This document shows, piece after piece, positions 1,916 to 35,011 of a stretch of DNA of 40,137 nt. The stretch spans positions 1-40,137 of the forward strand of contig JAAYPR010000047.1 in assembly GCA_012519705.1 (NCBI GenBank), read 5' to 3'. The translations under genes and the position numbers were made by a program. How positions within the stretch are numbered: the stretch's first letter is position 1; each line of letters opens with the position of its first letter. The DNA comes from Campylobacteraceae bacterium. GTDB lineage: Bacteria > Campylobacterota > Campylobacteria > Campylobacterales > Campylobacteraceae. The notes beneath the pieces were generated by a model. It had not been told where the DNA came from. It saw only the letters and a program-made list of their open reading frames with translations, and ran no database searches.

Positions 1916-3172
1916 TTAAATTTCTTTTCTTAAAAAACTATGCTCTGGTAGTTTTGTTGGTAGTAAGATTTCATTTATATTACCGCTATGAATTTCATCA
2001 AATTCTTTGTTGTTTTTAGCTCTTAAAACTTTAAACTCCACGTAAAATTTACCATCTTTTTTATAAACCTTGCCTAGCTCGTTATCAACCTCATCTATGG
2101 TTTTGCCAAGTGGAAAAAGCAGCTCATAAGGCTCAAATGGAACGATTTTAAACTTAGTTTTAAACACCTCTCCATCATCGCTTATAGCGTGAACTTGGTG
2201 GGTTCCTTCTTCTAATGTTGAGTCTAAATTCTGAGTGTTTTTTCTCTCATAAGGCTTGCTGATGAGATACCCATCTGTAAAACCGCGGTTTTTTAGAGTG
2301 TGAAGTTCGGCTTGGTAAATTTCTGGGTTAAACTTGCCACTTGCTGCGTCATCTATCGCCATTCTATAAGCATTTGTCGCACAAGCTACGTAATACTCAC
2401 TTTTTGTTCTTCCCTCTATCTTAAAGCTATCAACCGCCCCGCTTTGCATAATCTTTTCAACATGAGAGGCTAAATTTAAATCTTTTGAGTTCATGATATA
2501 AGTACCATCTTCATCTTCATCTATCCTAAAAAGCGTGCCATTATCGTCATTTTTAGCAAAAAGCTGGTAGTTAAAACGGCAGTCGTTTGCACAACTTCCG
2601 CGGTTACTTAAACGCCCACTTTGGACGGCACTTATAAGGCATCTGCCACTATAAGCAAAGCACATCGAACCGTGGATGAAAATTTCTATTTCTAAATTTG
2701 GTAGTTTTTCTTTTATCTCTATAACGTCTTTTAAGCCTATCTCTCTTGCTACAACCACTCTTTTAACGCCCATATCATAGTAAATTTGAGCGTCTAGGTA
2801 GTTCATAACGTTTGCCTGAGTTGAAAGGTGGATTTCAATGTCTGGTGCGATGCTTCTAGCTAAACTTATAACACTTGGACTTGCGATGATAAAGGCATCC
2901 ACGCCAGCTTCTTTTAAAAACTCAATGTGAGACTTAAACTTTTCAAGTTGGGCATTATATGGAAAGCCGTTTATGGTAGCGTAGAATTTCTTACCAAATT
3001 TATGAGTTAAATTTACACCTTCTATGAAGCTCTCCTCATTAAACTCTTTTGCACTTCTTTGCCTTAGTGAAAATGCCCCCATACTTGCATATACAGCGTC
3101 TGCTCCGTAGTTTAGTGCGATACTTAGCTTGTTTAAATTTCCAGCTGGGGATAGAAGTTCAGGTTTTTTCAA
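1916..3172 (-). CDS. Peptidase U32 family protein (TrhP/YegQ-like)
   Basis: 418 residues. It opens with the U32 signature KKPELLSPAGNLNKL and contains the cysteine set Cys171, Cys178, Cys194 and Cys198 (CFAYSGRC ... SCANDC), which in this family is associated with an Fe-S cluster. Members near E. coli TrhP (YegQ) make 5-hydroxyuridine at the wobble position of tRNAs using prephenate; older annotations call the family collagenase-like protease. I infer tRNA hydroxylation rather than proteolysis. The only in-frame start near the conserved N-terminus is TTG at 3172, with AAGGA five bases upstream. An out-of-frame ATG-ATT-TGA micro-frame overlaps this start. It probably heads the operon with glyQ. 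Confidence 0.88.
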   Translation of the reverse strand: MKKPELLSPAGNLNKLSIALNYGADAVYASMGAFSLRQRSAKEFNEESFIEGVNLTHKFGKKFYATINGFPYNAQLEKFKSHIEFLKEAGVDAFIIASPSVISLARSIAPDIEIHLSTQANVMNYLDAQIYYDMGVKRVVVAREIGLKDVIEIKEKLPNLEIEIFIHGSMCFAYSGRCLISAVQSGRLSNRGSCANDCRFNYQLFAKNDDNGTLFRIDEDEDGTYIMNSKDLNLASHVEKIMQSGAVDSFKIEGRTKSEYYVACATNAYRMAIDDAASGKFNPEIYQAELHTLKNRGFTDGYLISKPYERKNTQNLDSTLEEGTHQVHAISDDGEVFKTKFKIVPFEPYELLFPLGKTIDEVDNELGKVYKKDGKFYVEFKVLRAKNNKEFDEIHSGNINEILLPTKLPEHSFLRKEI

Positions 3173-3201
3173 ATCATTCCTTTTAAATTTTTTAACCTAT
3201 T

Positions 3202-3207
3202 ATTATA
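3202..3207 (-). promoter_or_regulatory. Candidate -10 box for the U32-glyQ transcription unit
   Basis: On the minus strand this reads TATAAT, about 30 bases upstream of the TTG start at 3172. It sits in a very AT-rich stretch without an evident -35 box, as is normal for Campylobacter sigma-70 promoters. Assigned from sequence only. Confidence 0.5.
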
Positions 3208-3275
3208 TAATAAAATCTTTAAAGGAAAATTTGAGTGAATTAAATTTGGTGAATTTGAGTTATATTTTACAAAGT

Positions 3276-3318
3276 AAAAGCAGTAAAAACCTATGCGAAG
3301 CACAGCAACTCTGTCGGT
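3276..3318. repeat. Direct repeat copy A
   Basis: This copy matches the stretch 3510-3555 with a few substitutions and small indels. Shared core segments are AAAAGCAGT and GCGAAGCACAGCAACT, and both copies end in TCGGT. It lies immediately downstream (in window coordinates) of the U32 promoter and contains no gene. Confidence 0.8.
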
Positions 3319-3397
3319 AAATTTATATTTTAAAAATTTATCTATGAATTTATAAAAAATATATCTTCATTTAAGTTTAAAATTTTATTAGATGGAT

Positions 3398-3480
3398 TTT
3401 ACTTCGCTACGCTCGTAACTGCCGAGACGCATCCGCTACAGACGCCACGAATTTACTTCGTAAATTCTCGCAATGACGAT
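3398..3480. repeat. Dispersed palindromic repeat element
   Basis: Contains a perfect 8-base-pair hairpin GAATTTAC-TTC-GTAAATTC (3449-3467), preceded by TACTTCGCTACGCTCGTAAC and flanked by GCCACGA and CTCGCAATGACGA. Read on the minus strand it starts TCGTCATTGCGAG, resembling intergenic repeats I recall from Campylobacter and some unrelated genomes. Whether it is multicopy here cannot be tested in one window. Confidence 0.6.
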
Positions 3481-3496
3481 ATATCTTAACTTAAAA

Positions 3497-3515
3497 GCTT
3501 TTGTGCAACAAAAGC
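3497..3515. repeat. Small perfect hairpin GCTTTTG/CAAAAGC
   Basis: A 7-base-pair perfect stem with a TGCAA loop, directly before direct repeat copy B. It is followed at 3524-3538 by a second perfect hairpin, CTGTGC-GAA-GCACAG. Function unknown; the tandem arrangement suggests a structured transcript or repeat module. Confidence 0.6.
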
Positions 3516-3555
3516 AGTTAAACCTGTGCGAAGCACAGCAACTTTGTGCGTCGGT
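3510..3555. repeat. Direct repeat copy B
   Basis: Partner of copy A at 3276-3318. Unlike copy A, its central hairpin CTGTGC-GAA-GCACAG is perfect. It leads straight into the G-rich block. Confidence 0.8.
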
Positions 3556-3591
3556 CAGGGGTGGGGGTTGTTAAGGGGGCGGGGGCTGACC
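3553..3591 (+). other. G-quadruplex motif closed by an inverted repeat
   Basis: Four G-runs lie on the plus strand: GGGG (3558-3561), GGGGG (3563-3567), GGGGG (3575-3579) and GGGGG (3581-3585), with loops of 1, 7 and 1 bases. This fits the canonical G4 pattern. The block is bracketed by GGTCAG (3553-3558) and CTGACC (3586-3591), which are complementary. Such a motif is unexpected in AT-rich sequence. Folding is predicted, not shown. Confidence 0.65.
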
Positions 3592-3621
3592 CTCGCAACT
3601 CTGAAGCCCTCGCCCCCTTAA
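3571..3621. repeat. Large GC-rich hairpin
   Basis: The left arm at 3571-3586 (TTAAGGGGGCGGGGGC) is complementary to the right arm at 3606-3621 (GCCCTCGCCCCCTTAA), a 16-base-pair stem with one G-T wobble and a 19-base loop. It shares two G-runs with the G4 motif, so the two folds exclude each other. On the plus strand it is followed by an A-run, not a T-run, so it is not a canonical terminator. Confidence 0.75.
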
Positions 3622-3732
3622 AAAATAAGACATAAAAACCTTAATAAATTTAACAATTTTGTCTTTTTAAAAAAAATTATACGTGAATTTAATCAACAAA
3701 AAACCATTAAATTTAACCAAGCTTAAATAAAA

Positions 3733-3758
3733 TAGATTGCCACGATAGTCGCAGTCTA
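3733..3758 (-). terminator. Probable terminator of pdxS
   Basis: TAGATTGC (3733-3740) pairs with GCAGTCTA (3751-3758) apart from one G-T wobble. On the minus strand the hairpin begins at the pdxS TAG stop codon and is followed by ATTTTATTTAAGC, a T-rich tail. It is a modest stem, so efficiency is uncertain. Confidence 0.55.
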
Positions 3759-4634
3759 ATTCCCCCGATTTGCCATAATGACTTTTATCTCATCTTCATT
3801 TATCCCAACCATAGCTTCGCCTAAATCCTCACTAACTCTAGCTATCACGTCAGGATTATCATAGTTTTTCACAGCTTCTACGATGGCTTTTGCTCTTTTT
3901 TCAGGATTTCCTGACTTGAAAATTCCTGAACCTACAAACACACCTTTTGCACCAAGCACTCTCATAAGTGCCGCGTCAGCGGGAGTTGCAACCCCGCCTG
4001 CACTGAAATTCACTACTGGCAAGTCCCCGTTTTCATGCACGTATAAAAGCAGCTCATAGCTCACGCCCATAGTTTTAGCTTCGTTAAAAAGCTCGTCCTT
4101 ACTCATAGACGAAACTCTTTTTATATCGCTCATTATCGCTCTCATGTGAGTTACAGCTTGGACGACATCGCCTGTTCCAGCCTCGCCTTTTGTGCGTATC
4201 ATCATCGCACCTTCATTTATACGTCTTAACGCTTCGCCTAAATTTCTAGCACCACAGACAAATGGCGTTTTAAACTCTCTTTTATTTACATGATACACGT
4301 TATCAGCTGGGCTTAAAACCTCGCTCTCATCGATAAAATCCACCCCGATACTCTCTAGCACCCTAGCCTCTACGATATGCCCTATCCTACACTTTGCCAT
4401 AACTGGGATTTTCACAGCTTTCATGATCTCTTTTATCATCTTTGGATCACTCATCCTAGAAACCCCACCCGCCGCTCTGATGTCAGCTGGAACTCTCTCT
4501 AGTGCCATGACAGCCACCGCACCACTTGCTTCTGCGATTTTGGCTTGTTCTACGTTTATAACGTCCATTATAACGCCACCTAAAAAGCTTTTGGTAACGC
4601 TATTTGCTTTTTCTAAAAAGTCACATTTTTGCAT
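3756..4634 (-). CDS. pdxS: Pyridoxal 5'-phosphate synthase lyase subunit PdxS
   Basis: 292 residues, full length. PdxS (Pdx1) condenses ribose 5-phosphate, glyceraldehyde 3-phosphate and ammonia into pyridoxal phosphate. The two catalytic lysines fall at the canonical positions, Lys81 (VMAKCRIGH) and Lys149 ([10 protein letters not shown]), with Asp24 in the first strand. ATG at 4634 has AAGGATAAATTT upstream. It is divergent from a MocR/PdxR-type regulator. The usual partner PdxT, the glutaminase that supplies ammonia, is absent on both sides, so this PdxS either meets an unlinked PdxT or uses free ammonia. C. jejuni, as I recall, makes PLP through PdxA/PdxJ, so this gene may be an acquired or lineage-specific route. 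Confidence 0.95.
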
Positions 4635-4665
4635 AAATTTATCCTTATTTTTAAAAATTTGCTGT

Positions 4666-4671
4666 ATTATA
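4666..4671 (-). promoter_or_regulatory. Candidate -10 box of pdxS
   Basis: Minus-strand TATAAT about 32 bases upstream of the pdxS ATG. The palindrome at 4680-4694 lies immediately upstream, where a -35 region would be. Confidence 0.55.
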
Positions 4672-4679
4672 AGCTAATT

Positions 4680-4694
4680 TTGATACTATATCAA
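4680..4694. promoter_or_regulatory. Candidate operator palindrome in the pdxS-pdxR divergent region
   Basis: Perfect inverted repeat TTGATA-CTA-TATCAA in the 103-base space between the two divergent genes. It overlaps the expected -35 zone of pdxS and lies 43 bases before pdxR. It is a natural candidate binding site for the neighbouring regulator, though MocR proteins often bind direct repeats. Inference only. Confidence 0.4.
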
Positions 4695-4737
4695 TATCCA
4701 TTTTAAGAGAATTTAATAATACCAAAAAAGGAAATTT

Positions 4738-6078
4738 ATGCTTACTTACGCCTTAAACAGTCCAAACAAACCTCTCTACGAACAGCTTTATGAAAATATA
4801 AAAAGTGACATTTTAAAAAGCGTTTTAAAAGGCGGATATAAACTTCCTTCAAAAAGAACCTTTGCCTCTCATCTTGGTATCAGCGTTATCACAGTTCAAA
4901 ATGCCTATAATCAGCTTTTAATAGAAGGCTTCATCTACTCAAAAGAGCGTTCTGGCTACTTTGTCACTAAAGGGATAAAACCTATTAAAAAAGAAGTCAC
5001 TGCCCCAGCTAAAAAAGAGAGTAAAAAAGAAGAGAGCTTTATAAATTTAAGCTCATCAAACAAAAGCTCATTTCCACTCTCATCGTGGAACAAAATACTT
5101 AGAGAAATCATCTCAAAAAATAGTGATAAAATTTACCAAAACGTCCCATTTAACGGCGTAGATGAACTAAGAAGTGCCATTTCTAAACACCTTTTTGAAT
5201 ACCACAACCTAAAAGCTGACAAAGATCTCATTATCATCGGTGCTGGGGCTCAGTATCTCTATATCTTGATAACTCAGCTTTTAGGCAAAGACATGGTTTT
5301 TGCTCTTGAAAACATAAGCGATACAAAGATAGGCAGAATTTACCAAAGTCTTGGCGTTAGATGCGAGTTTATAGAAGTTGATGAAAATGGCATGAGTATA
5401 GATAGCCTTAGAAAAAGCGGGGCAAATGTAGCCCACCTCTCCCCTGCTTCTAACTTCCCAACGGGAAATTTAATGCCCATAACTAGAAGAAGTGAGTTAC
5501 TAGAATGGGTGAGTTTAGAAAATGAGAGATTTATCATAGAAGATGAGTATTTAGGCGAGATGAGAGATAGGACTATCCCGCCACTTAAGAGCATAAACTC
5601 GCAAAAAGTGATATTTATGAACACTTTTTCTAAAACCCTACTTCCAACTTTAAGGATAAGTTATATGGTTTTGCCCGAGCATTTAATGGATAAGTTTAGA
5701 GAAAACTTAAGCTTTTACTCATCAACGGTGCCGATTTTTGAACAGCTGACTTTGGCTAAGTTTATAAATGATGGGTATTTTGAGAGATATTTAGCAAGAA
5801 GCAAGAAAGAAAACTCTCTTAAAAAAGCTGATATGATAAAAACTATAAAAGAGTTTGATAGTTCTATGGAGTTTAAAGAGAGCTTAACTCACTTGCTACT
5901 GCCTCTAAATTTAAGTAGTGATGAGCTAAAAACAAAAGCTAAAAAAGATGGATTTTTGGTAAATTCCTTGGATGACTACTGCTACACTAACAAAAATAGC
6001 AAAGATAAAACAGTAGCTCTCATAGACATCAACTCTGACACCAAAGATTTAGTCAAATTTCTAAAAGCTATTAGTTAA
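4738..6078 (+). CDS. MocR-family (GntR wHTH + aminotransferase-like) regulator, probably PdxR
   Basis: 446 residues. Residues about 10-78 form a GntR winged helix-turn-helix (KPLYEQLYENIKSDI ... GYKLPSKRTFASHLGIS ... GFIYSKERSGYFV). After a Lys-rich linker (80-100), residues about 110-446 are a fold type I aminotransferase-like domain with the PLP-site residues Asn239 (SNFPTG), Asp269 (IIEDEYLGE), Lys299 (NTFSKTL, Schiff-base lysine) and Arg306. MocR proteins sense PLP or amino compounds. Being divergent from pdxS strongly suggests it controls PLP synthesis as PdxR does in Gram-positives. ATG at 4738 has AAAGGAAATTT upstream. Target and ligand are inferred. Confidence 0.85.
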   Translation: MLTYALNSPNKPLYEQLYENIKSDILKSVLKGGYKLPSKRTFASHLGISVITVQNAYNQLLIEGFIYSKERSGYFVTKGIKPIKKEVTAPAKKESKKEESFINLSSSNKSSFPLSSWNKILREIISKNSDKIYQNVPFNGVDELRSAISKHLFEYHNLKADKDLIIIGAGAQYLYILITQLLGKDMVFALENISDTKIGRIYQSLGVRCEFIEVDENGMSIDSLRKSGANVAHLSPASNFPTGNLMPITRRSELLEWVSLENERFIIEDEYLGEMRDRTIPPLKSINSQKVIFMNTFSKTLLPTLRISYMVLPEHLMDKFRENLSFYSSTVPIFEQLTLAKFINDGYFERYLARSKKENSLKKADMIKTIKEFDSSMEFKESLTHLLLPLNLSSDELKTKAKKDGFLVNSLDDYCYTNKNSKDKTVALIDINSDTKDLVKFLKAIS

Positions 6079-6101
6079 ATTTAGATAATAGTAACACTAT
6101 T

Positions 6102-6112
6102 TATGATAAAAT
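6102..6112 (+). promoter_or_regulatory. Candidate glnA promoter -10 region
   Basis: TATGATAAAAT about 30 bases before the glnA ATG, in the 63-base gap after the MocR gene. It holds two overlapping -10-like hexamers. CTATTT and AAATAG flank it as a short inverted repeat. Confidence 0.45.
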
Positions 6113-6141
6113 AGTAGCTTTAAATTTAAGGAGAAAATTAA

Positions 6142-34819: not shown

Positions 34820-35011
34820 AAAAACCCAAGTGACCGATGCGAAAATATAGATTGGCCCTAATAAAGCCAAACATGCAGATAGAAACTCTCTTTAGGTTGC
34901 AACCTCTCGCTTTTTTCAAAGCTCAAGCGAAGCCACATCACACCGAGAGCTTACCTCTCCGCCATACTTAATGTGTTGGACCTTCATAAAATGCTGTCGA
35001 ATCACTCAGGC
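34820..35011 (-). ncRNA. ssrS: Probable 6S RNA
   Basis: About 190 bases with no reading frame. On the minus strand a TATAAT (35018-35023) is followed at correct spacing by CCTGAGTGA (35002-35010), which pairs with TCACTTGGG at the 3' end (34825-34833), directly before a six-T run. Inner pairs GGTCC/GGGCC (34978-34982 with 34854-34858) and ACAT/ATGT extend the rod; the middle contains a bubble with local hairpins (GAGAG-GTAAG-CTCTC). A closed rod with a central bubble is the 6S RNA shape, which sequesters RNA polymerase. It lacks the SRP, tmRNA and RNase P core motifs. Alternative: a long structured leader of the RDD-lptD operon. Confidence 0.6.

Follow-up and report, generated by a model that had tools for sequence, protein, structure and literature searches.

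The 583 bp spacer between pdxS (positions 3756–4634, minus strand) and a U32 peptidase gene (1916–3172, minus strand) is probably a composite of non-autonomous REP-type DNA, made of two tandem units with the order P – core – A, whose constituents would have spread in trans and would then have been rearranged. The analyzed sequence (here the window, 40,137 nucleotides) is contig C27 of a Campylobacteraceae genome assembly of 1,718,324 bases in 52 contigs (G000 in our collection). The gene names pdxS and U32 are labels of the initial annotation, which was made from the sequence alone; the closest named match to the U32 protein of the window comes from Campylobacter portucalensis (82%). The repeats are dispersed over the genome, patchily distributed among genomes and absent from the same spacer in congeners, and they exhibit quantised joins, compensated stems and shared cassettes.

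The spacer is a repeat mosaic, which on the minus strand we interpret as two tandem units of a P element, an AT-rich core and a module A. Unit 1 begins with what we interpret as a remnant of P (3733–3755, reading TAGATTGCCACG, identified by eye), cut off beside the pdxS stop, and continues with its AT-rich core (3626–3732) and a complete module A (3491–3625). The segment 3491–3720 recurs as one block at C31:43783–44011 (85%), and module A matches C31 with 91% over 135 bases. A short linker (3479–3490) leads to unit 2, the matches to P and A being 8 nt apart. The P element of unit 2 (3393–3478) contains the tag and 5' frame (3467–3478), an inner hairpin (3450–3466) with a GAA loop on the minus strand, and the tail AATCCA (3393–3398). 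An insert delimited by eye, Q (3399–3443), separates GGC from AATCCA within the tail; eight similar modules (≤ 3 substitutions) occur elsewhere in the stretches of the same genome. The AT-rich core of unit 2 (3319–3392) follows, and the segment 3317–3402 aligned with the core of locus L115 at 93.5 compared to a shuffle maximum of 80. Unit 2 ends in a module A reduced to its hairpin end (3276–3318, with the hairpin at 3291–3305). All these features are on the minus strand. In this reading the two units are recognized from the module order and from other copies, not from likeness between the cores, as the two cores of the window gave no significant alignment to each other (68.5 compared to a shuffle maximum of 75).

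The initial annotation described a direct repeat of roughly 45 bases at 3276–3318 and 3510–3555. Both copies are present, with a length closer to 40–43 bases including small gaps: 3276–3314 and 3510–3547 are 90% identical, the ungapped blocks match at 93% (3287–3314/3520–3547) and 92% (3276–3288/3510–3522), and a further alignment extends the match to about 3318. In our reading, the direct repeat would be the end that two A modules have in common, one of which has an internal deletion. The palindromic element noted on the minus strand is likewise present (CGTCATTGCGAG at 3467–3478), as are the three occurrences of GCAACT(C/T)TG (near 3304, 3537 and 3596, as read in the sequence) and the stacked hairpins, two of them computed (3291–3305 and 3497–3515) and two found by eye (3524–3538 and 3450–3466), together with G/C-rich arms at 3568–3587/3605–3624. 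As single-stranded DNA, two segments fold better than their shuffled versions: 3486–3555 (z = −3.05, 1 of 200 shuffles as good) and 3552–3625 (z = −3.12, 0 of 200). The P element at 3395–3478 is no better folded than shuffles (z = −0.23 on one strand and 0.17 on the other, with 74 and 108 shuffles of 200 being as good). Among open reading frames of at least 60 amino acids, only one, of 63 amino acids (3129–3320), extends into the spacer. The suggestion of a degraded element applies in part: in our reading, one copy of A has an internal deletion and one P is truncated.

A BLASTN search with a 381-base query from the spacer yielded at least 67 matches at E ≤ 1 in the same genome, itself included (40 of 130 candidates scored), and the exact sequence CGTCATTGCGAG occurs 61 + 59 times compared with 0 + 0 for the reversed pattern. 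These matches and counts, set against the zero reversed controls, indicate that the spacer repeats are not due to chance. The P frame together with its tail occurs 65 + 58 = 123 times in G000, with no occurrence of the reversed control. Allowing two substitutions, 228 tag matches were found in fifty stretches of the genome plus the window (280,805 bases, the stretches being mostly picked for holding the repeat), and the 194 of them with a recognizable tail, including a few that extend into the following element, served to define the frame. Two contigs of the assembly start inside A modules (C31:1–96 and C38:1–92), so the repeats apparently interrupt the assembly and the copy counts may be low.

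The P element is palindromic: a constant frame, (C)GTCATTGCGAG...GCAATC(C/T)A, encloses an inner hairpin that is exchangeable. Each copy reads, in order, (C)GTCATTGCGA(G), the inner hairpin, either CGTGG or CGAA, and CAATC(C/T)A. Among 182 elements in G000 there are 101 distinct inner inserts, and 64% of the elements contain a perfect inner stem of at least 4 pairs, compared to 7.6% after shuffling. The loops differ by strand: among 116 hairpins read on the tag strand in G000, 65 have a GNA triloop and one has a TNC triloop. The corresponding counts are 10 to 0 among 23 hairpins in G022 and 5 to 0 among 10 in G031, where the inner stem is less frequent (32% and 38%, respectively, in smaller samples). 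GNA-type mini-hairpins, for example GCGAAGC, are unusually stable as DNA. Under the name of mini-hairpins, such structures are treated in PMC10527192. The outer stem is compensated at its fourth pair (paired in 148 of 162 elements, against a mean of 131.9 over permutations, none of 2000 being as high) and with weak support at its fifth (148 of 162; permutation mean 144.7, 46 of 2000 as high), in a set of 162 elements of which some may be chance matches, as one sequence shuffle gave 9 matches to the pattern. At least four loci (L095, L107, L121 and L126) hold a longer, nested form of P with a length of 89 bases, whose Q module includes a second P-like hairpin.

By their flanks, the P copies were divided into classes I, II and III, with 18 copies outside them, the class assignments being approximate. 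The main cassettes, assigned loosely (≤ 3 edits), recur across the classes, with all nine found in class II and eight each in classes I and III. Neighboring pairs include 64 facing (HH), 71 head-to-tail (HT) and 30 tail-to-tail (TT) pairs out of 165 at up to 3 substitutions, some chance matches included, and 46 HH, 42 HT and 24 TT in a stricter set. The distances in 22 facing pairs of classes I and III are quantised, with 101–105 bases in 12 pairs, 147–152 in seven, and 125, 127 and 172 in the others, which supports the modular joins and with them the proposal of shuffled modules in the initial annotation. By eye, the spacers of 147–152 bases (L122, L126 and other I–III pairs) resemble a tandem duplication of about 46 core bases.

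Facing partners rarely resemble each other. None of 46 facing pairs has inserts at least 80% alike, compared with 5.31 expected (0 of 400 permutations as low), and none of 43 shares a loosely assigned cassette; identical inserts in facing pairs number 0 against a permutation mean of 0.60, and are rare in any case. PMC3733652 also describes several families that favor unlike partners. The explanation that palindromes formed by like facing partners were lost is weakened by the finding that the other neighbors are as unlike as the facing pairs (at least 80% alike: TT 0 of 24, HT 1 of 42), and it is not the whole reason.

Module A is a multi-hairpin repeat with a G/C-rich part that fits an intrastrand triplex. 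It has 15 matches in the stretches of the same genome and the window, the window copy included; four of the 15 are joined to a recognized P by 7–13 nt, and three more are joined, by eye, to a degenerate P. A match to module A is present in 10 of 60 genomes (G000 included) from three genera, in one genome by a single 25-base match, and the copies in relatives hold other hairpin inserts. In the window, the candidate triplex lies at 3558–3617 on the plus strand, with the third strand at 3558–3567, a loop at 3568–3574, the purine strand at 3575–3585, a second loop, and the pyrimidine strand at 3607–3617. The triplex pattern has 29 matches, 8 of them in the same genome, which reduce to 14 distinct copies; the window copy has strands identical to those of the L115 copy and was merged with it, and with T.C:G counted, 10 of 10 triplets agree in the merged copy. 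Over the 14 copies, the 5' G-rich run agrees with the purine strand (G.G:C, T/A.A:T) at 126 of 140 positions (mean of 115.2 over 2000 permutations, none of them as high), or at 129 of 140 with T.C:G allowed (mean 118.5, 2 of 2000 as high), and a stricter pattern retained 7 copies with 1 mismatch (14 of 1000 permutations as good); as the copies are related to one another, these permutation fractions are not probabilities. The loops are mostly 5–7 and about 18–27 bases long. By this agreement, module A fits a candidate intrastrand triplex.

The pair pdxS–U32 is adjacent in 4 of the 13 other genomes of the genus search, with gaps between the two matches of 81 bp (G003), 120 bp (G008), 254 bp (G011) and 763 bp (G001). 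In these four genomes BLASTN found no match to the island repeats at the pdxS–U32 spacer, and a motif scan gave a single match, in G011, and none in the other three, compared with three in the window. The G011 match is tag-like with up to 2 substitutions and without a tail, and no repeat was seen around it by eye. The spacer is thus free of the repeats in all four congeners, in which the flanking genes are about 70–78% identical, a divergence at which exact junctions are unreadable. The many intergenic copies in the genome and the absence at the same spacer in 4 of 4 congeners keeping the gene pair agree with the mobile-repeat reading proposed earlier, for which a search of the genome and its relatives, with many intergenic copies and empty sites in relatives as the supporting outcome, had been suggested; the dispersed repeat family is supported. 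No exact junction, target duplication or polymorphism between strains was seen, and its mobility we infer. The pdxS–U32 gap of G001 holds a repeat-rich open reading frame of 227 amino acids. In G005, G009 and G010, U32 lies directly beside glnA; in the window, pdxS and a GntR-like gene stand between U32 and glnA (3173–6141).

In a draw of 397 Campylobacterota genomes from a larger group, the P frame is present in 72, with a patchy distribution from 0 to 666 copies, and the reversed-frame control in the same 397 genomes gave none among the matches listed. Eleven members of the genus are in the draw: G000 has 123 copies, G006 129, G002 35 and G004 4, and the remaining seven have none. The exact 12-mer CGTCATTGCGAG undercounts the congeners (0–5 copies), since the leading C hides copies that the frame counts in G006 and G002. 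In another genus of the family, G022 contains 666 copies in about 1.9 Mb (one per ~3 kb), G031 contains 18 and G036 none. Beyond the phylum, a version of P at 85–94% was found in seven plasmid records from Methylosinus, Methylocystis, Novosphingobium and Halomonas; it is intergenic in the two records with usable annotation (L142 and L144), two others being almost unannotated. The plasmid search found no copy of the whole spacer and none of the 38-base version of P.

Comparison with known systems places P near the CGTC-tagged REP superfamily of Di Nocera, De Gregorio and Rocco (2013, PMC3733652), as described in the available text of that paper. The two share a CGTC tag, a stem starting with AT and a 3-base CCA-type tail, as well as high copy number, intergenic location, facing pairs with conserved spacers, an uneven distribution and no associated transposase (for P, in searches for Y1 and IS110). 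The tag of the CGTC REPs (CGTC, or TGTC or CCTC) is unpaired at one end, which is also found in P, where the base before GTC is variable in many copies; the A-T start of the stem (ATT...AAT) and the tail (CCA or CTA) are present in P too, both being part of the search frame. In contrast, the CGTC REPs have stems of 8–9 bp with loops of 4–5 bases (Table 1 in PMC3733652), whereas P has an outer stem of about 5 bp (ATTGC/GCAAT) and a second, exchangeable hairpin in place of the loop, unlike the repeats described there. Among CGTC REPs HH pairs predominate, TT pairs are rare, HT pairs negligible and clusters rare, whereas clusters, HT and TT are common for P. Because the tag and tail fit the superfamily while stem, loop and clustering do not, P is called here a variant of the CGTC-tagged REPs rather than a plain member.

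The same paper (PMC3733652), as far as its text was available, mentions CGTC repeats in Sulfurovum, a member of the same phylum, and counts Neisseria dRS3 and Rickettsia RPE among the CGTC families; the likeness of these two to P is the CGTC tag, by the text of the paper, not by sequences. The word Campylobacter is absent from the available text of PMC3733652, PMC4666352, PMC12306157 and PMC6006769, and among the matches listed in the open-licence literature none concerned, by its title, the P frame or motif. The E. coli REP/BIME and REPIN systems with RAYTs are similar as intergenic mosaics of inverted palindromes with conserved spacers, and differ by their GTAG tag and associated Y1 transposase. 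Module A can be compared with the TM-ECO intrastrand triplex motifs (Holder et al. 2015, PMC4666352, in its available text): both are intergenic, have many copies and contain two G-rich runs and one C-rich run in the purine motif. Unlike in TM-ECO, the strand order in module A is third strand, purine strand, pyrimidine strand, the loops are about 7 and 18–27 bases compared with 1–6 in the ITxF search, the middle loop often has its own hairpin, and the module is part of a larger repeat joined to P.

No mobilizing enzyme of the repeats was found in G000 in searches for Y1 and IS110 transposases. IS110 transposases were found in 9 of 41 genomes and gave no match in G000, G002, G006 or G022, and were rejected as the mobilizer. 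Y1 (RAYT-type) transposases gave no match in G000 at E ≤ 1 and none at E ≤ 0.1 in G002, G006, G013, G017, G022, G028, G036 or C. portucalensis, with one weak match under the cut-off in G031. It is possible in principle that the repeats were mobilized by a RAYT (a Y1 HUH transposase), as proposed for GTAG-tagged REPs, and that the enzyme has since been lost. Hairpins tagged on one side and inverted pairs do resemble REP/RAYT systems (PMC3733652, available text), and Y1 matches exist in 124 of the 397 Campylobacterota genomes (E ≤ 0.001). However, only 5 of 24 genomes with at least 20 frame copies (G120, G209, G349, G379 and G404) have Y1 compared with 119 of the 373 others (counted by hand), such that frame presence is not linked to Y1 transposases, and G000, unlike a REP/RAYT system with its GTAG tag and its Y1 gene flanked by the repeats, has a CGTC tag and no Y1 match; we consider this scenario very unlikely. 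Somewhat less improbable, though still unlikely, is that ancient repeats were inherited by descent, reshuffled by homologous recombination or template switching and massively lost, with no transposition. The quantised joins and shared cassettes could arise from recombination between copies, and the frame also occurs on the plasmids of Alphaproteobacteria and Halomonas (7 records). Yet 123–129 versus 0 copies within one genus would need repeated near-complete loss, and the orthologous spacers of the four congeners hold no remnant other than the tag-like match in G011.

Alternatively, the spacer could be a structured RNA, a region of transcription termination or an element that regulates pdxS or U32 in cis. 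Out of 77 islands, 61 have an open reading frame on both sides, and these are mostly between tandem or convergent genes (35 tandem, 23 convergent, 3 divergent, as raw counts); 12 islands overlap an open reading frame, mostly as single fuzzy matches, and dropping the four such islands within the 61 leaves 32, 23 and 2. Three terminator-like sites lie in the spacer compared with 0.5 expected, all of them on the strand that also carries both genes (minus), and there are four promoter-like sites compared with 2.8 expected. On the other side, the same modules stand beside many unrelated genes, four congeners do without the spacer repeats, and no Rfam family matches the spacer at its gathering score, the better of two sub-threshold matches reaching 22.5 bits compared with a gathering score of 78, which goes against the structured RNA considered in the initial annotation. 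An RNA or regulatory role as the explanation of the spacer is highly improbable in our assessment. Elsewhere in the window, a purD RNA motif (RF01069) is present at 34824–34954 on the minus strand (93.3 bits, gathering score 41). Integron attC sites are hairpins with conserved ends and a variable middle, and in this they look like the P elements. However, the islands are scattered over many intergenic sites with no gene cassettes between the elements, and an integron-type attC array or a CRISPR relative, both set aside on anatomy, appears extremely improbable.

We return to the composite of non-autonomous REP-type units that spread in trans. The enzyme that spread the copies would be neither a Y1 nor an IS110 transposase of this assembly, and it would most likely work on the tag strand in the form of a single-stranded hairpin. 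The mosaic would then have arisen through deletions, tandem duplications and nested insertions, and near-identical neighbors may have been lost. The strand-specific loop bias and the compensated stems, with neither a duplex terminal repeat nor a Y1 or IS110 transposase found, make spread in trans on a single-stranded hairpin the best guess. For the host, the repeats are probably neutral or of consequence at mRNA ends only.

From the sequences we conclude that the spacer appears to be a modular mosaic in which CGTC-tagged REP-type repeats are combined with a triplex-type repeat, both amplified in some lineages. In module A, the agreement of the third strand is evidence, at the sequence level, for an intrastrand triplex whose loops exceed those permitted in the earlier search. 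The CGTC REPs were reported in 2013 without a dedicated transposase (PMC3733652, available text), and the matches listed from the open-licence literature, as far as their text was available, include no later answer. Tentatively, and with more doubt than confidence, we speculate that an enzyme not yet described could recognize the frame GTCATTGCGA...GCAATC(C/T)A, handle it in single-stranded form and tolerate or exchange the middle hairpin, and that this enzyme could be the missing mobilizer of the CGTC REPs. If this is true, the GNA triloops on the tag strand, the cassettes common to the flank classes and the unlike neighbors would be the signature of that enzyme. In this phylum, closely related species range from 0 to 666 frame copies, the frame is strict and its hairpins are exchangeable, and most repeat-rich genomes have no Y1, so that a comparison of sister species rich in the repeat with others free of it could serve to look for the mobilizer.
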